A DNA stretch of 64,000 nt from Bradyrhizobium sp. CB82 (lineage in GTDB: Bacteria > Pseudomonadota > Alphaproteobacteria > Rhizobiales > Xanthobacteraceae): NCBI RefSeq assembly GCF_029714405.1, contig NZ_CP121650.1:6019001-6083000 (forward strand), given 5' to 3'. The position numbers and the translations under genes were made by a program. This document shows, one piece after another, positions 6,356 through 13,549 of this stretch; within the stretch, counting starts at the first letter, position 1; the number at the start of each line of letters is the position of its first letter. Below the pieces are notes generated by a model that searched no databases, was not told where the DNA came from, and saw only the letters and a program-made list of their open reading frames with translations.

Positions 6356-6393
6356 GGCCACCTGCTCCCGTTAGCTTGACTTGAAGCTTTTCA

Positions 6394-6436
6394 TCATGGC
6401 GCGATGAGATTGGGATGAATCATCATCGCGCCATGA
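6394..6436. repeat. Perfect 14-bp inverted repeat (intergenic palindrome)
   Basis: The arm TCATGGCGCGATGA at 6394-6407 is matched perfectly by its reverse complement at 6423-6436, around a 15-base loop. It lies just upstream of a second hairpin (6448-6494). The pair resembles a dispersed intergenic palindromic element I recognise from Bradyrhizobium and relatives. No function is known to me. Confidence 0.7.
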
Positions 6437-6447
6437 GTTATTGTTTG

Positions 6448-6494
6448 AGCATGATCTTTTCGGAAAACCGCTTCACACTTTTCCGGATCATGCT
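6448..6494. repeat. Dispersed palindromic element (AGCATGATC...GATCATGCT)
   Basis: The left arm AGCATGATC (6448-6456), a TTTT bulge, then CGGAAAA (6461-6467) pairs with TTTTCCGGATCATGCT at 6479-6494 around an 11-base loop. This is the hairpin with CGGAAAA and TTTTCCG arms found repeatedly between genes in Bradyrhizobium genomes. It lies in the leader of the small membrane protein at 6517. Confidence 0.75.
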
Positions 6495-6516
6495 CTCTAG
6501 CACGGAAAGGACTGCA

Positions 6517-6804
6517 ATGGCTGCCATCGATCCCCTCACCGCGGGTGCCGTGTTGCTCGCGACCGCCGCCACCGACGCGGTCTACGTCATGTTCACCTCC
6601 GCGGTCGTGGCGCGCAAGCGCGTGCCGGCGGCGACCTGGAGCGCGATCTGGTACCTGCTCTCCTCCTACGCCGTGATCAGCTATACCGAGAACGCCACTT
6701 ACGTCGCCTTCGCCGCAATCGGCTCCTGGGTCGGCGCCTACGTGTCGCTCACCTTCCTGCACCGCCCGCCCGGCGGCCCGCCGGTGGGTGCGGCGCCGGA
6801 GTAG
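6517..6804 (+). CDS. Small conserved membrane protein
   Basis: A 95-residue protein with about three hydrophobic segments (roughly residues 7-28, 38-58 and 60-80) and a short Pro/Gly-rich tail. The start is ATG 6517, preceded by GGAAAGGA; longer in-frame starts would run through the palindromic repeat and are unlikely. I do not recognise a functional family. It stands alone between two repeat elements. Confidence 0.65.
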   Translation: MAAIDPLTAGAVLLATAATDAVYVMFTSAVVARKRVPAATWSAIWYLLSSYAVISYTENATYVAFAAIGSWVGAYVSLTFLHRPPGGPPVGAAPE

Positions 6805-6955: not shown

Positions 6956-7726
6956 ATGGATCTCGGTCTCAAGGGGAAAAGCGCCGTCGTGCTGGGCGGC
7001 ACGCGCGGCATCGGGCAGGCGATTGCGGCGACGCTGGCCGGCGAAGGCGCCAACGTCGCGGTGTGCGCACGCAACGCCGAGCAGGTTGCGGCCACCGTGG
7101 CCGAACTGAGAGCGAGCGGCGTCCGCGCGACAGGTAGCGCGGTCGACGTGACCGATGGCGCGGCCCTGAAATCCTGGATCGACGGCGTCGCCAAGGAGTT
7201 CGGCGGCATCGACATGCTGTTCTCCAACGCCGGCGCCATGGCACAAGGCAACGACGTCGCCTCGTGGGAGCAGAATTTCCGGCCCGATGTGATCGGCGCC
7301 GTGCATGCGTTCGAAGCCGCGCGGCCGTTCCTCGAGACAAGCGGCGAGACAACGGGCGATGCGGCCTTCGTCATCATCTCGTCGGTGTCGGCGGCTCAGG
7401 CGGATGCGGCCGGCTCCTACGGCCCGATCAAGGCGGCGCTGATCCACATGGCCAAGGGACTGGCGCGGCAATACGCGAAGAAGAAAATCCGCGTCAACGT
7501 GGTGTCGCCCGGCACCGTCTATTTCAAGGGCGGCGTCTGGAACATGGTCGAGCAGAACATGCCCAAGCGCTACGAGGATGCGCTCGCCCGCAATCCGACG
7601 GGGCGCATGGCCACGCCGCAGGAAATCGCGAACGCCGCGGTATTTCTGGCAAGCCCGGTGTCCTCTTTCACGACAGGCTCCAATCTCGTCGTGGACGGCG
7701 GAATCTCGAACCGCGTGAATTTCTAG
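6956..7726 (+). CDS. SDR family NAD(P)-dependent oxidoreductase
   Basis: A 256-residue classical short-chain dehydrogenase. The nucleotide-binding motif GGTRGIG is at residues 14-20, the NAG motif in SNAGAMAQ near residue 90, and the catalytic Y155-x3-K159 is preceded by a serine cluster near 141. The C-terminus GSNLVVDGGIS is typical. The start follows AAAGGAG by seven bases. Substrate not predictable. It converges on dnaE2. Confidence 0.9.
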   Translation: MDLGLKGKSAVVLGGTRGIGQAIAATLAGEGANVAVCARNAEQVAATVAELRASGVRATGSAVDVTDGAALKSWIDGVAKEFGGIDMLFSNAGAMAQGNDVASWEQNFRPDVIGAVHAFEAARPFLETSGETTGDAAFVIISSVSAAQADAAGSYGPIKAALIHMAKGLARQYAKKKIRVNVVSPGTVYFKGGVWNMVEQNMPKRYEDALARNPTGRMATPQEIANAAVFLASPVSSFTTGSNLVVDGGISNRVNF

Positions 7727-7742
7727 AGGTTGGCGTCACACA

Positions 7743-7771
7743 GTCGACATCCTGGCGAAAGCCAGGACGAC
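7743..7771. terminator. Short hairpin between SDR gene and dnaE2
   Basis: TCCTGGC-GAAA-GCCAGGA (7750-7767) forms a 7-bp stem with a GAAA tetraloop, flanked by GTCG and CGAC that can extend it. It sits between two convergent genes and may act as a bidirectional transcription stop, but it has no T-run. The core also resembles a common Bradyrhizobium repeat. Confidence 0.4.
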
Positions 7772-7792: not shown

Positions 7793-10700
7793 TCAATGAA
7801 AATCCCTTGACGGCGGCAGGATGCGGACGTCGCGGGGGTGGCGGATTTTTTGCGCCGGGGTGTCGAGGTGGTCGCGGCGGTCGTCGTTGAGGGGCTCGAT
7901 CAGGGCGGCGCCGGCCGGCATCGGGTGCTTGCGGCTCAGCGCGTCGTTCGCAAGCCCGACCAGGTCGTGCGAGCGGTCGACCATTCGCAGGGCGATGAGA
8001 TGCGTCACCTTTTCGGGGCTGCTTTGGATATAGCCCTCGACCAGGATGAGGCGCGCGCCCATGACCTCCTTCCGGTACCGCTCCATGATCTTGGGCCACA
8101 CCACGACATTGGCGATGCCGGTTTCGTCCTCCAGCGTCATGAACACGACGCCGCTGGCGCTGCCCGGCCGCTGCCGTACCAGCACCACGCCGGCGCAGCG
8201 GACGCGGCGCCGCTCGTTCTCATGACGGACATCCTTGCAGGCGATGACGCGCTCGCGCGTGAACATCTCGCGCAAGAACTCCATCGGATGGCCCTTCAGC
8301 GACAGGCGGATGGTCTGGTAGTCCGCGACGACCTGCTCGGGGCGCGGCATCACGGGCAGCGGCCTCGCGTGCTCGTCCGGTTGCTCGCGCGCGGTCGCCG
8401 CCTCGAACAGCGGCAGCGGCACGTCGTCGGGCAGGCGCCGCACCTGCCACAGCGCCTCGCGGCGGTCGAGCCCGATCGAGCGGAACGCGTCGGCATCCGC
8501 CAGCAGGATCAGCGCGCGCTTGGGCAGACCGGTATCGCGGGCGAAGTCTTCGAGCGAGGTGAAGGGCCGGCGGTTGCGCGCAGCGACGATGCGGTCGGCC
8601 CAGTCGGTTGTTTTTGCGTTGTCATTCCGGGGCGTCGCGTCAGCGACGAACCCGGAATCCACTCCTCCAGGCCTATGCGGCTCGATGGATTCCGGGCTCG
8701 CGCCTTTCGGCGCGCCCCGGAATGACAGCTGAGAACGTCTCAGCCTCTCCTCATCCTCATCGAGCCAATGAAACCCGTCGATCTGGCGGAAGCCCAAGCG
8801 CACGGCGCAGTATTTGCCGTCGGTGCTCTCAAGCGTGTTCTGCGCGAAGCTGTAGGACACGTCGATGTCGCGCACCTCGACGTCGTTCTTGCGGGCATCG
8901 CCGACGATTTGCGCCGGCGCATAAAAGCCCATCGGCTGGGAGTTGAGAAGCCCGCAGCAGAACGCGTCGGGATGATAATATTTCAGCCAGGACGAGATGT
9001 AGACGAGCTGCGCGAAGCTCGCCGCATGGCTCTCCGGAAAGCCGTAACTGCCAAACCCCTTGATCTGGTCGAAACAGCTCCTGGCGAAGTCGGGGGCGTA
9101 GCCGCGCGCGACCATGTTGCCGATCAGCTTGTCCTCGTACTTGCCGATGGTGCCGACATTGCGGAAGGTCGCCATCGAGCGGCGCAGACCATTGGCCTCC
9201 TCAGAGGTGAATTTTGCCGCCTCGATCGCGATCCGCATCGCCTGTTCCTGAAATAGAGGTACGCCCATCGTCTTGTGCAGCACCTTGTAGAGCTCATCCT
9301 TATCCCCGTGCTCAGGTGACGGCGATGGATAGCTCACTTTTTCCTGACCGTTCCGCCGCCGCAGGTAAGGATGCACCATGTCGCCCTGGATCGGTCCTGG
9401 ACGCACGATCGCGACCTCGATGACGAGATCGTAGAAGGTCCGCGGCTTCAGGCGCGGCAGCATGTTCATCTGGGCGCGGCTCTCGACCTGGAACACACCG
9501 AGCGATTCCCCGAGACACAGCATCTCGTAAACCTTGGGATCGTCCTGCGGGACGCTCGCCAGAACCCACCGCTCATCTTTGTGTTTGTCGATCAGGTCAA
9601 AGCATTTGCGGATGCAGGTCAGCATGCCCAGCGCCAGCACGTCGACCTTCATCATGTTGAGCGCGTCGACGTCATCCTTGTCCCATTCGATGAAGGTGCG
9701 GTCGTCCATCGCGGCATTGCCGATCGGCACATAGGTGTCGAGCCGGTCCTGGGTCAGCACATAGCCGCCGACATGCTGCGAGAGGTGGCGTGGGAATTCG
9801 ATCAACTCGGTCGCAAGCTCGACCGCGAGGCTGATCATGGGATTGTTGGGATCAAGCCCGGCCTGCTTCACCTGCATGTCGTTGAGGCCCTTGCCCCAAC
9901 TCCCCCACACCGTATCGGCGAGCGCCGCGGTGACGTCTTCCGTCAGGCCGAGTGCCTTGCCGACATCGCGGATGGCGCTGCGTGGGCGGTAGTGGATGAC
10001 GGTCGCGATGATCGCGGCGCGATGGCGGCCATAGCGGCGATAGACATATTGCATCACCTCCTCGCGCCGCGAATGTTCGAAATCGACGTCGATGTCGGGC
10101 GGCTCCAGCCGCTCCTTGGAGATGAAGCGCTCGAACAACAGATCGACCTTGGTCGGATCGACCGAGGTGATGCCGAGCACGTAGCACACGGCCGAATTCG
10201 CCGCCGAGCCCCGGCCCTGGCACAGAATGTTCTGGCTGCGCGCATAGTGGACGATGTCGTGCACGGTGAGAAAATAATGCGCGTATTTCAGCTCGGCGAT
10301 CAGCGCGAGCTCCTTGTGCAGGGTGGCGCGGAGCTTGTCGTCGATCTTGCCGCCGAAATAAGTCTGCACGCCGGCCCAGGTCAGGTCCTCCAGATGCCCT
10401 TGCGCGGTCTTGCCCGGCGGCACCGGCTCGTTCGGATATTGATATTTGAGCTGGTCGAGCGAGAAGTCGATGCTGTCGGCAAAGCGCATGGTCTCTGCGA
10501 GCGCCGCGGGGAAATCGCGGAACAGCCGCGCCATTTCTCTGGGCGTTTTCAGAAACCGCTCGGCGTTGGCCTCCAGCTTCTTCCCGACCACCTCGATCGT
10601 GGTCTTTTCCCGGATACAGGTCAGCACGTCCTGCAAGGGGCGACGCGCGGGATGGTGATAGAGCACTTCGTTGGTCGCGAGCAGCGGCACTTTCGCCTTC

Positions 10701-11254
10701 GCTGCGAGATCATCGAGCCGCGCGAGACGGCGCCGACCGTCGCCGCGGTAGAGCAGGCTCGCCGCCAGCCACACGCCATAGGCAGAGCTCGCCTTCAGCC
10801 CGGCAAGCACGTCCAGCGCCTTCGCTGTATCAAAGCGATGCGGCAGCGTCAGGACCAGGAGCTGGCCTTCGGTAAATTCCAGGAGATCGGCGAAGCTGAG
10901 ATGGCACTCGCCCTTCTCGATCCGCGTGATGTCATCGCCGCGCTTGCCCCTGGTGAGAAGCTGGCAGAGCCGGCCGTAAGCGGCGCGGTCGCGTGGATAG
11001 ACCAGGATGTCGGGCGTGCCGTCGATGAAAACGATGCGCGCGCCGATCAGGAGCTTCGGCTTGTGCAGCACCTCGGCATTGTCGAGCTCTTTATAAGCAC
11101 GCACGACGCCGGCAAGCGTGTTGTGATCGGCAATCCCGATCACGGGAATGCCCAAAATGCTGGCCTGATGCACATAGGCGCGCGGATCCGAGCCGCCGCG
11201 AAGGAAGGAGAAATTGGTGGTGATGCCGATCTCGGCATAGGCTGGCGTGTTCAT
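7793..11254 (-). CDS. dnaE2: Error-prone DNA polymerase DnaE2 (ImuC)
   Basis: A 1153-residue C-family DNA polymerase: N-terminal PHP domain (starting AEIGITTNFSFLRGGSDP), polymerase core with PDIDVDFEHSRREEVMQYVY (the Asp pair binds metal), fingers, helix-hairpin-helix region and C-terminal OB fold. It is the translesion polymerase of the SOS mutasome with ImuA and ImuB. The start at ATG 11254 overlaps the imuB stop in an ATGA; the longer open frame into imuB is not used. Residues about 843-878 are encoded by a palindromic repeat inserted in frame between the fingers region and the helix-hairpin-helix region, which is unusual (see repeat 8621-8726). Confidence 0.95.
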   Translation of the reverse strand: MNTPAYAEIGITTNFSFLRGGSDPRAYVHQASILGIPVIGIADHNTLAGVVRAYKELDNAEVLHKPKLLIGARIVFIDGTPDILVYPRDRAAYGRLCQLLTRGKRGDDITRIEKGECHLSFADLLEFTEGQLLVLTLPHRFDTAKALDVLAGLKASSAYGVWLAASLLYRGDGRRRLARLDDLAAKAKVPLLATNEVLYHHPARRPLQDVLTCIREKTTIEVVGKKLEANAERFLKTPREMARLFRDFPAALAETMRFADSIDFSLDQLKYQYPNEPVPPGKTAQGHLEDLTWAGVQTYFGGKIDDKLRATLHKELALIAELKYAHYFLTVHDIVHYARSQNILCQGRGSAANSAVCYVLGITSVDPTKVDLLFERFISKERLEPPDIDVDFEHSRREEVMQYVYRRYGRHRAAIIATVIHYRPRSAIRDVGKALGLTEDVTAALADTVWGSWGKGLNDMQVKQAGLDPNNPMISLAVELATELIEFPRHLSQHVGGYVLTQDRLDTYVPIGNAAMDDRTFIEWDKDDVDALNMMKVDVLALGMLTCIRKCFDLIDKHKDERWVLASVPQDDPKVYEMLCLGESLGVFQVESRAQMNMLPRLKPRTFYDLVIEVAIVRPGPIQGDMVHPYLRRRNGQEKVSYPSPSPEHGDKDELYKVLHKTMGVPLFQEQAMRIAIEAAKFTSEEANGLRRSMATFRNVGTIGKYEDKLIGNMVARGYAPDFARSCFDQIKGFGSYGFPESHAASFAQLVYISSWLKYYHPDAFCCGLLNSQPMGFYAPAQIVGDARKNDVEVRDIDVSYSFAQNTLESTDGKYCAVRLGFRQIDGFHWLDEDEERLRRSQLSFRGAPKGASPESIEPHRPGGVDSGFVADATPRNDNAKTTDWADRIVAARNRRPFTSLEDFARDTGLPKRALILLADADAFRSIGLDRREALWQVRRLPDDVPLPLFEAATAREQPDEHARPLPVMPRPEQVVADYQTIRLSLKGHPMEFLREMFTRERVIACKDVRHENERRRVRCAGVVLVRQRPGSASGVVFMTLEDETGIANVVVWPKIMERYRKEVMGARLILVEGYIQSSPEKVTHLIALRMVDRSHDLVGLANDALSRKHPMPAGAALIEPLNDDRRDHLDTPAQKIRHPRDVRILPPSRDFH
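8621..8726. repeat. Cloverleaf palindromic repeat inserted in frame in dnaE2
   Basis: Perfect outer arms GTCATTCCGGGGCG (8621-8634) and CGCCCCGGAATGAC (8713-8726) enclose three smaller stems: CGTCGC-GTCA-GCGACG (8633-8648), CCCGGAATCCA (8651-8661) with TGGATTCCGGG (8686-8696), and GCGCC-TTTC-GGCGC (8700-8713). The sequence matches a dispersed Bradyrhizobium palindromic repeat that is normally intergenic. Here it is read through in frame as part of DnaE2. Confidence 0.85.
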
Positions 11255-12846
11255 GCGAAGAGACCGTGCACATACCAGTTGGCGGGAACGGACCTGCCCT
11301 CCTCGTCCACGAGCTCGCTGTCGTAGAGACCATCGCGAAAGATCCAGAACCGCAGGCCTTCGGCATCCTCGACGCGAAAGTAATCGCGCGTGAGCTGCTT
11401 GCCGTCCTGCCGCCACCATTCCATCGCGATGCGCTCGGGCCCTTCCACCCGCACCACCGCATGCAGCGCGCGGCGCCAGGTGAATTGATGCGGCGCGCCG
11501 TCGGGCACGGTCGCGAACGGCACCTTGATCGGCTCCGGTCTGTCGAACAGCCGCAACGGACGCAGCGGCGGCTCGCTCTCAACGCGCGATGGCCATTCAG
11601 CCTGCGCAGCAGCGGCAAGATGATGCTGCGCGGGCACGGCCAGCACGGCGCACTCCGGGATATGCGTATCCTGCGGCAGGTGCACGACGACGCGCTTGCC
11701 GCCGATCCTCGCGGCGATGCGGTCGATCAGCGCGGTGAGTTCGTCATTGTCGTGGACGTGCGCATCGAGATCGCGCTGCTCCTGCACCACGGTCTCGGTC
11801 CTGCTCGCCGACAGCCGCACCATGTCGAAGCCGAAGCCGGGATCGAGGGGATCGGCGAGCGCATCCAGCCGCTCGCGAAAGAGCCGGTCGATGACTGCGC
11901 TTCGCGTCACCGGACGTCCCGTTTCGACCATGATCGCGCGCACCACGCCGTCGGTGCGGAAGAAGGACGCCTCCAGCCGCCGCGCACCCTTGCCTTGCTT
12001 CTCCATCGAGGTAACAAGCGTATCCGCAAGCCGCGACAGCGTCATCGCGATCATGGTGTCGGTCGCGATCGGCTCGGCGAAGCGTTTTTCCACGATGTAG
12101 TCAGGCAGCGGTTTTCGCGGGCTGATTGGCGCATCGCCCTGCCCCAGCGCATGCGCAAGCAGCGTCGAGAAGCGCGCACCGAAGCGCGCCGTGATCTCAT
12201 GGGAGCTGCGCAAAGCGACAGCGCCGATGGTTTTCAAGCCGGCGCGGCGCAGGCCCGTGGTGATGGCGTCATCGGCGCCGAGCGCGGAGACCGGGAAGCG
12301 GTTGATCGCTTCCGCCTCAGCGCCATCGGCAACGATGGTGCCGGAGGCCTGCCGCGTCAGCGTGCGCGCGCAGATTGAGGTCGAGGCGATCGCCGCGCTG
12401 ACCGCAAAACCCTGCCGCGCCAGCGTACGGACGAGCGCCTGCAACAGGTTGGCCTCGCCGCCGAACAAATGCGCGCAGCCGGTGATGTCGAGGAACAGGC
12501 CATGCGGCGGATCGAGCGCCACCAGCGGCGTGAAGCGGTCGCACCAGTCGGCGATATCCTCGAGCGTCTTGGCATCTGCCGCGACATCGGCGTCGAATAC
12601 TTTCAACTCTGGGCAAATGGCGCGGGCGTTCGCCAACGGCTGGCCGATATGCAGGCCGAAGCGTCCGGCCGCCTCATCGAGAGCGTAAATAACAAGCGCA
12701 TTATTCTCCTTTGCGACGACGATGCTCGGCTCGTCTTTAGCTAGCTCTCCGCCGATCGCTGAGAAAACCCGCCGGATGCGATCGATGGGCAGGCGCGGCA
12801 GCCACAGGCTGAGGATACGGCGACGGTTCGCTGAACAGGCACTCAT
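11251..12846 (-). CDS. imuB: ImuB, catalytically degenerate Y-family polymerase-like protein
   Basis: A 531-residue protein (from ATG 12846) with a Y-family polymerase fold followed by a C-terminal DUF6504-type segment (WRRALHAVVRVEGPERI to the end). It is thought to be the hub of the ImuA-ImuB-DnaE2 mutasome, linking DnaE2 to the beta clamp. The first catalytic-acid region reads LWLPRLPIDRI, without the usual metal-binding Asp, consistent with ImuB lacking polymerase activity. The start is preceded by GGAG and overlaps the end of imuA by 110 bases; the stop overlaps the dnaE2 start. Confidence 0.92.
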   Translation of the reverse strand: MSACSANRRRILSLWLPRLPIDRIRRVFSAIGGELAKDEPSIVVAKENNALVIYALDEAAGRFGLHIGQPLANARAICPELKVFDADVAADAKTLEDIADWCDRFTPLVALDPPHGLFLDITGCAHLFGGEANLLQALVRTLARQGFAVSAAIASTSICARTLTRQASGTIVADGAEAEAINRFPVSALGADDAITTGLRRAGLKTIGAVALRSSHEITARFGARFSTLLAHALGQGDAPISPRKPLPDYIVEKRFAEPIATDTMIAMTLSRLADTLVTSMEKQGKGARRLEASFFRTDGVVRAIMVETGRPVTRSAVIDRLFRERLDALADPLDPGFGFDMVRLSASRTETVVQEQRDLDAHVHDNDELTALIDRIAARIGGKRVVVHLPQDTHIPECAVLAVPAQHHLAAAAQAEWPSRVESEPPLRPLRLFDRPEPIKVPFATVPDGAPHQFTWRRALHAVVRVEGPERIAMEWWRQDGKQLTRDYFRVEDAEGLRFWIFRDGLYDSELVDEEGRSVPANWYVHGLFA

Positions 12847-13549
12847 CACATTTCCACTCCATGATCCACCGGCCGACCGGGCCATGGCGATTGCGAACGA
12901 GCTCGGCATCGAAGCAAGGCGCGCCCCAGGCGCTCCAAAGCGCCGCAGGCTTTGAAGTAGGTCCAGGCGGCGAATGCGCCGCCCGCAACATCCATCTGGT
13001 TTCCGCGGTCGACGGCAGAGGGTTTGCCGCCATCCGCAACAGCAGCCCGGTCACGCCGGAAGCCTGGGCTGCAAGCGTCAGCTTGCGGCTCGCCACGAGA
13101 TCGAACTGTTTCGTCTCACCCCAGAGCTCGAGCACGACGGCACCCAGCGCATCGCAGGCAAGCGCATCAGCTGACGTCCGCAGCGCACTCTCGACATCGG
13201 CAGCGCGTACCATCACCACATGGCGCGGATCGAGGCCGAGCTCGGCAAGCCCGTTCATCGACAGCGCGCCCGCCTCGACGTCCGAAAAATCCTGCCGCAC
13301 CCACAACAGCGGCCGGCGCGCGGTCACGCGGCCGGCGAGTCCCGTGATAAAGCCTGTCGCGGCCGTGCCATGGCGTCCCTCGCAAAACACCTCGTGGATC
13401 GCGGCGCGTGCAAGGCCGCCCTGCAAAGCCTGATCCACTTCCGGATGGCCGAGCGCCACGCGATCGCGATGATGCGCGGCCTCCGACGTCTCGATGCGCT
13501 CGATCTGGCCACGCAAGACCGCAAGCGCGCTTCCGCGTGCGCCGCTCAT
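12737..13549 (-). CDS. imuA: ImuA, SOS mutagenesis cassette protein
   Basis: A 270-residue RecA/SulA-like protein, first gene of the imuA-imuB-dnaE2 operon. The family pattern is visible (HPEVDQALQGGLARAAIHEVF near residues 35-55 and LLWVRQDFSD near 81-90). ImuA is needed for damage-induced mutagenesis together with ImuB and DnaE2. The C-terminal 36 residues are read from the same DNA as the imuB N-terminus in another frame. A LexA box lies 67-81 bases upstream of the start. Confidence 0.9.
   Translation of the reverse strand: MSGARGSALAVLRGQIERIETSEAAHHRDRVALGHPEVDQALQGGLARAAIHEVFCEGRHGTAATGFITGLAGRVTARRPLLWVRQDFSDVEAGALSMNGLAELGLDPRHVVMVRAADVESALRTSADALACDALGAVVLELWGETKQFDLVASRKLTLAAQASGVTGLLLRMAANPLPSTAETRWMLRAAHSPPGPTSKPAALWSAWGAPCFDAELVRNRHGPVGRWIMEWKCDECLFSEPSPYPQPVAAAPAHRSHPAGFLSDRRRAS

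Follow-up and report, generated by a model that had tools for sequence, protein, structure and literature searches.

The closest described relatives of the element reported here belong to the CGTC superfamily of REP sequences, whose units are defined by an unpaired terminal tag CGTC (or TGTC/CCTC), a stem of 8–9 bp beginning with AT, a loop of 4–5 nt and a CCA tail, and which form dispersed families, mostly of head-to-head dimers, with no tyrosine transposase of their own (PMC3733652). The sections of that paper covered here note odd loops for the Bradyrhizobium CGTC-1 elements, and for Rickettsia conorii they treat CGTC-1 as RPE-6 and CGTC-4 as RPE-4. They also report, in 2013, REPs lying within genes, and the proteins tagged in this way include DnaE2; where several genes of one functional category carry REPs these are found at different sites, with the exception of recB of two Xanthomonas (PMC3733652). 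A consensus for the repeat Br-REP2, derived from intergenic regions and 3′-UTRs, was published in 2016 (PMC5082802, in the section covered). An earlier note on the present locus was not aware of in-frame intragenic copies for this repeat family, although REPs in DnaE2 genes had been reported in 2013. The bare fact of a REP inside a DnaE2 gene is not new. No earlier description of a hypervariable DnaE2 loop was found in the open-access literature, and as far as these searches show it is this hypervariability that is the new part.

The window (the whole stretch of 64,000 nt analysed here, from Bradyrhizobium sp. CB82) carries on its minus strand dnaE2, encoding an error-prone DNA polymerase of 1153 aa (7793..11254, with the start at 11254 and the stop at 7793–7795). 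The product is matched by NF004225 (error-prone DNA polymerase) with 1547.6 bits against a cut-off of 939, and by Pfam polymerase III domains. The start codon, an ATG at 11254, overlaps the stop codon of the upstream gene (11251..12909, minus strand), a Y-family-like polymerase gene that matches DNA polymerase IV models at scores far below their cut-offs, and that from its position we take to be imuB-like. An ORF upstream (12737..13549, minus strand) is presumably imuA-like, again by position. The dnaE2 product contains the motifs PDIDVDF and MKVDVLALG, which we assume to hold the catalytic aspartates. Solved PolIII alpha chains align at both motifs, and a Foldseek search did no more than confirm the kinship with PolIII alpha.

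The repeat within dnaE2 is a head-to-head dimer of palindromic CGTC/Br-REP2 units (8620..8727, minus strand), as judged from its fold, its matches in the genome and the complementarity of its arms. It encodes residues 843–878, which read LSFRGAPKGASPESIEPHRPGGVDSGFVADATPRND. Unit 1 (8620..8661, plus strand) comprises a tag TGTC, an 8-bp stem ATTCCGGG/CCCGGAAT, a 19-nt loop with a stem of its own and the tail CCA. After a spacer of 24 nt (8662..8685), which encodes the middle of the insert and is poorly conserved among aligned copies, unit 2 follows in inverted orientation (8686..8727, minus strand) with the same tag, stem and tail and again a 19-nt loop. The two arms, 8620–8661 and 8686–8727, are complementary at 79%, and their outer 15 bp are perfectly paired (14 bp when counted from 8621/8726). 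As single-stranded DNA the element folds into an outer stem and three inner stems, with a free energy of −44.7 kcal/mol compared with a mean of −23.6 for shuffled sequences (SD 2.71; z = −7.8), and 0/200 shuffles folded as well. This is the 106-base palindrome with perfect 14-bp arms and three inner stems described in the earlier note, extended by one base at each side; the frame of dnaE2 is open right through it, as that note had also stated for the insert of about 36 residues. Rfam gave no match in the window at gathering cut-offs, and the possibility that the element is a described RNA family was rejected on that ground.

Both units resemble the Br-REP2 consensus, with identity in 34/42 columns for unit 2 and 33/41 for the other in global alignments with gaps. 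The outer ends of the dimer both carry TGTC; the stem of 8 bp begins with AT and is the same in both units; and CCA follows each inner stem, with the tags on the outside. The repeat is dispersed, as the earlier note had supposed for a Bradyrhizobium repeat: the 10.14 Mb genome contains at least 64 matches at E ≤ 1e-3 in at least 40 distinct places, a lower bound since 40 of 94 candidates were scored. There is no dedicated tyrosine transposase by the measure of the Y1 transposase family PF01797, which has 0 matches in this genome and matches in 5/14 control genomes. The one departure from the CGTC definition is in the unit loops, which have 19 nt and themselves fold. By sequence the element is placed in the CGTC REP superfamily, as a Bradyrhizobium subtype rather than the canonical form. 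A GTAG REP mobilized by RAYT was considered and rejected, given the tag TGTC and the lack of a PF01797 match in the genome. Elsewhere in the window, a short palindrome with a CGTC-like end (CATCCTGGCGAAAGCCAGGACG) was seen by eye at 7748–7769, just past the 3′ end of dnaE2 and between it and the convergent gene 6956–7726; it resembles a lone CGTC unit of a different subtype. Stretches resembling inverted repeats (catcatggcgcgatgag ... catcatcgcgccatgag and gagcatgatcttttcggaaaa ... ttttccggatcatgctc) are visible by eye in 6378–6500, upstream of a small ORF at 6517.

In the protein the insert is flanked by RLGFRQIDGF and DWADRIVAAR. With its borders, taken from the GF of the former to the end of the latter, the loop occupies 8576..8776 on the minus strand. 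The Pfam HHH_6 match begins no earlier than residue 883 (884 if the ATG is counted), which corresponds to position 36 of the 90 in the profile; the first helix-hairpin-helix (HhH) domain is thus split by the insert. It had earlier been placed between the fingers and the HhH region, and is moved by this result into the first HhH itself. An AlphaFold2 model of the C-terminal 465 residues, calculated from an alignment of the window's DnaE2 with 49 of 58 relatives' fragments, has a mean pLDDT of 72.1. The middle of the insert is predicted to be disordered (model residues 168–193, pLDDT < 50) between helices at 145–155 and 197–207, in keeping with the earlier reading of it as a probable surface loop.

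The same loop was compared throughout the genus. dnaE2 was found in 151 of the 156 genomes searched, with one genome per species, and 150 loci were taken, that of the window included; three were dropped (L273 for lack of an anchor, L307 and L308 as truncated), leaving 147 that could be parsed. The loop is in frame without a stop in all 147, with sizes of 102–408 nt as cut and 53 different lengths. The stretches measured to either side are of constant length: 84 aa separate a conserved upstream motif from the loop in 147/147 genes, and 90 aa lie between the loop and GHPM in 144/144 where this anchor was found. Classified by motif, 80 loops are of type A, the CGTC/Br-REP2 family of the window element, two are A with an inner deletion, 17 are B, 14 C and 7 D, one each combines A+D and C+D, and 25 are short. 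All four types are palindromic, with fold z-scores of −7.8 (A), −8.1 (B), −11.3 (C) and −9.0 (D), and types B, C and D have further copies in the genomes searched. We had considered these as four mutually unrelated repeat families, and this was rejected. Local alignments, scored against 200 shuffles, relate B to C (z = 10.7), give a weak relation between C and D (z = 5.4) and barely any between B and D (z = 2.3); only A stands apart from the other three (z = −1.4 to 0.1). A stretch that by eye appears to be a remnant of A stands at the start of several alleles of types B, C and D (L271, L219 and L203 among them).

Some loops have further structure. A small extra palindrome (GAGCGAGCTTCGCTCGTCTC-like, read as SRASFARLG or SELRSSRP) is nested in B and C inserts (L232, L276, L278, L284, L287, and in C-type loops such as L256 and L264). 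L191, L192, L193, L239, L253 and L255 appear by eye to have lost internal parts of A in frame with the ends kept. One record titled Frankia sp. RB7, an actinomycete (L035), has a dnaE2 that falls inside Bradyrhizobium in a comparison from which 28/81 rows were left out; this assembly is probably mislabelled or contaminated.

The earlier note had pictured a repeat interrupting this particular gene, and had proposed that the insert should be absent from close relatives. Many relatives instead have a repeat of this family at the identical position and frame, which comes near to the outcome that the note had named as refuting it, although in others the loop is short or is filled by a different repeat type. 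The closest match to the window element is the dnaE2 element of Bradyrhizobium huanghuaihaiense (L025), at 102/106, with L024 and L026 at 100/106 and 98/106; set against the 146 other genus loops it is most like L172 (102/106) and L178 (100/106). The best of 22 non-dnaE2 copies compared in its own genome reaches only 91/108. Since a dnaE2 element from another species matches it better than any own copy compared, the element is not fresh. A recent jump of the repeat into the dnaE2 of this strain, possibly damaging the polymerase, would account for outer arms that are still perfect over 15 bp and for the existence of relatives with a short loop. Besides the identities just given, the frame and position shared by most loops of the genus and the lack of a PF01797 match in the genome stand against it, and we regard such a private insertion as extremely improbable. 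The window element is most likely a resident allele of a hypervariable loop.

Loop and gene have largely separate histories. The loop class changes at least 51 times on a tree built from the remainder of the gene (2460 columns), in which 72 of 144 inner branches have strong support and 41 are open; 200 shuffles of the labels gave a mean of 62.6 and a minimum of 57. Since 51 is below every shuffle some signal of descent remains, and it is weak. Types B and short keep some of it (12 changes against a shuffle mean of 16.3, and 18 against 23.4); the corresponding figures are 15 against 14.5 for C and 7 against 8.8 for D. For 38 genes the nearest relative, by weighted identity, is at least 95% identical beside the loop, and in 31 of these the loop itself is <75% identical.

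The replacement can be sharply bounded. In the pairs L280 (D)/L281 (C), L288 (A)/L298 (B) and L232 (B)/L244 (A) the identity stays high up to the loop, at 92–100% in the first two 60-nt windows in either direction. For the sisters L232 and L244 these values are 98–100% and 97–100% either side, and both come from single-contig genomes, which argues against an assembly error. Other pairs have a dip in the first window, to 85% upstream in L176/L177, and to 88% upstream and 77% downstream in L212/L215.

Ten pairs with like loops, chosen for their likeness, were used to count differences by codon position. These are 68/70/89 at the first, second and third positions in the loop and 67/31/418 beside it; leaving out two pairs that seem out of register (L197/L241 and L171/L233) they are 26/26/37 and 47/23/337. 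The pattern beside the loop points to strong purifying selection on dnaE2. With this and both motifs present the polymerase looks intact, and it is probably active. The loop peptide is not visibly constrained by the same measure, and may well be neutral. Turnover as extreme and as local as this might alternatively reflect diversifying selection on a loop that contacts a rapidly changing partner, either a partner in the mutasome or a phage inhibitor. The substitutions in the loop are instead near flat over the codon positions (68/70/89) and look neutral, the peptides are read-through of the repeat with no motif common to all types (by eye), and the loop is short in 25/147 genes; selection of this kind seems quite unlikely. 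A functional role of the loop variation is possible, and is unsupported by the codon-position pattern.

Those 25 short loops bear also on a reading in which the palindrome acts as an mRNA or DNA control element that slows or limits the synthesis of DnaE2, the peptide being a by-product. The very good folding of all four types as single strands would suit such a role, as would the effect of E. coli REPs on mRNA (PMC5082802, in the section covered). Given that so many genes of the genus have a short loop at this place, we consider it very unlikely.

The reading frame of the repeats is uniform. The 5′ motif of A is in codon phase 0 in 102/102 occurrences and the 3′ motif in phase 1 in 80/80, and within the genus each of the other types likewise has a single phase (B 13/13, in phase 0; C 11/11; D 7/7). 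In 93 of the 99 loops that have an A motif the first lies 45 nt after the GF codon; in the remaining six (L181, L259, L260, L275, L283 and L285) it is further on. The frame used in dnaE2 is open in 36/80 scored orientations of 44 other copies of A, against 37 and 48 for the other frames. As it is open no more often than these, openness alone does not explain the uniformity. On this evidence a single entry of A followed by exchange would fit best. Like loops also recur in distant genes, with a core identity of 0.954 and flanks of 0.884 in L262/L216, and 0.959 and 0.877 in L301/L309.

The route of exchange is only inferred, since none of the loops searched yielded an exact donor; the best own non-dnaE2 copies are 80% (L244), 75% (L281), 91% (L242) and 91% (L203) identical. 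Nor was a footprint of recombination found in the flanks. Among pairs matched for like overall divergence, the nearest windows are 86.7%/88.8% identical in like-loop pairs (n = 67) and 85.4%/85.8% in unlike pairs (n = 4117), and with flanks so nearly equal any exchange tract must be short. At L059 a non-dnaE2 copy in the same genome (93/97) is closer to the element than the best dnaE2 element compared (L027, 93/101), so that ectopic exchange or a separate insertion is indicated there. Copies in dnaE2 have somewhat less well preserved outer arms (mean 0.827, n = 59) than those elsewhere (0.886, n = 35), a difference that does not separate the models.

The search was extended to genomes of the family, where a match was found in 103/119. 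Outside the genus 65 loci were examined, of which 62 have the anchor (L380, L398 and L401, which lack it, were dropped). Inserts that by eye are repeat-like occupy the same loop in six of the 62 (L356, L359, L360, L362, L363 and L366), from two genera. Their folds have z-scores of −1.9 to −5.8 against mononucleotide shuffles, weaker than those of the genus loops. Four of these six loci have the B motif, in each case in phase 1, as does L052; within the genus it is in phase 0 in 13/13, which argues for a separate entry of B outside the genus. Most of the DnaE2 proteins compared from more distant genera have almost no loop at this place. In the DnaE2 of L388, from another genus, a repeat-like insert was seen by eye in the adjacent loop of the HhH region, past one more helix; from its position there, the tolerance is not confined to one loop.

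That separate insertions have occurred, as the B-like repeat in another frame implies, raises the question of whether each lineage might have acquired its repeat independently at a target hotspot, with no exchange of alleles. The close own-genome copy at L059 and the lack of a recombination footprint beside the loop would both agree with this. A single codon phase for each type across the genus would be unexpected on such a model, as would the recurrence of like loops in species as distant as those of L262/L216 and L301/L309, and we consider independent insertion unlikely as the general explanation. Entry of A once, with later short-tract replacement, is the reading that we prefer and develop below.

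Among the ORFs scanned with Pfam, no second gene was found to have accepted the repeat in this way. In the genome of the window 41 loci (40 places) were checked for spanning ORFs, and 20 chosen ORFs from 19 loci were scanned with Pfam. Sixteen of the 20 have no Pfam domain; four have one, and in each of these the element lies upstream of the domain. A peptide probe of 15 genomes (10 from the genus and five from other genera of the order) gave 10 stop-free non-dnaE2 ORFs of at least 400 aa, nine without a Pfam domain and one with the element upstream of its domain. dnaE2 is the only supported intragenic site here, a statement that applies to genes recognizable by Pfam domains among the ORFs scanned. 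The earlier note had asked how many genomic copies lie inside genes and in which phase; the count itself stands at no fewer than 40 places, and by the same Pfam criterion the dnaE2 copy is the only one shown inside a recognized gene.

Taken together, the data are best accommodated by a tolerant disordered loop that collects palindromes, which are swapped locally and filtered for reading frame, and we hold this to be the probable course of events. Type A, the head-to-head dimer of CGTC/Br-REP2, would have inserted a single time, early in the history of the genus, into the hairpin of the first HhH of DnaE2, the disordered loop being able to tolerate any in-frame peptide. Types B, C and D would have entered the same loop later, some of them beside remnants of A. 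Alleles of the loop would then have undergone replacement in very short tracts, chiefly through recombination with the dnaE2 of other species, sometimes perhaps from other genomic copies of the repeat, or have been shortened by deletion. Breaks or cleavage provoked by the hairpins may have triggered the recombination. Selection would keep the frame open and hardly see the peptide.

A stronger form of this proposal would make the hairpin of the first HhH a cassette site that renews itself. Its palindromes would provoke breaks or template switches, and the loop would be redrafted, from other dnaE2 alleles or from repeats in the genome, at a rate exceeding that of species divergence, so that the polymerase varies its own DNA-contacting hairpin. 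We think this unlikely. Were it true, the breaks might arise during the damage-induced synthesis in which DnaE2 itself is involved, and the variation may tune the processivity or mutation rate of the enzyme.

Intragenic repeats are commonly regarded as rare accidents. In this case a single polymerase loop has taken up several types of palindrome across a genus, with more in two further genera, and has been replaced locally within a gene that otherwise stays under strong purifying selection. With their graded sizes, the loops amount to a set of natural insertions into a single site of a C-family polymerase, suited to functional tests. They bear on the suggestion made in 2013 that REPs in repair genes might alter mutagenesis (PMC3733652, in the sections covered). 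The DnaE2 loop is also a place at which very local sequence exchange around palindromes can be watched between bacterial species.

Compared with the CGTC superfamily, the element in dnaE2 shares the outer TGTC tags, the 8-bp stem beginning with AT, the CCA tails, the head-to-head arrangement, the many copies and the lack of a tyrosine transposase, as well as the occurrence of copies within genes, those for DnaE2 included (PMC3733652). It differs in the unit loop, which has 19 nt and its own stem in place of 4–5 nt, and the sections of that paper covered here describe neither a hypervariable loop shared between species nor several repeat types in one loop. Br-REP2 corresponds to one unit of the dimer (34/42 and 33/41 columns); the section covered on it makes no mention of coding copies (PMC5082802). 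The Rickettsia RPEs are likewise palindromes that encode an extra peptide inside genes. The difference is one of distribution, various genes being occupied in Rickettsia according to the sections covered (PMC3733652), whereas in the present genome the copy in dnaE2 is the one shown inside a recognized gene.
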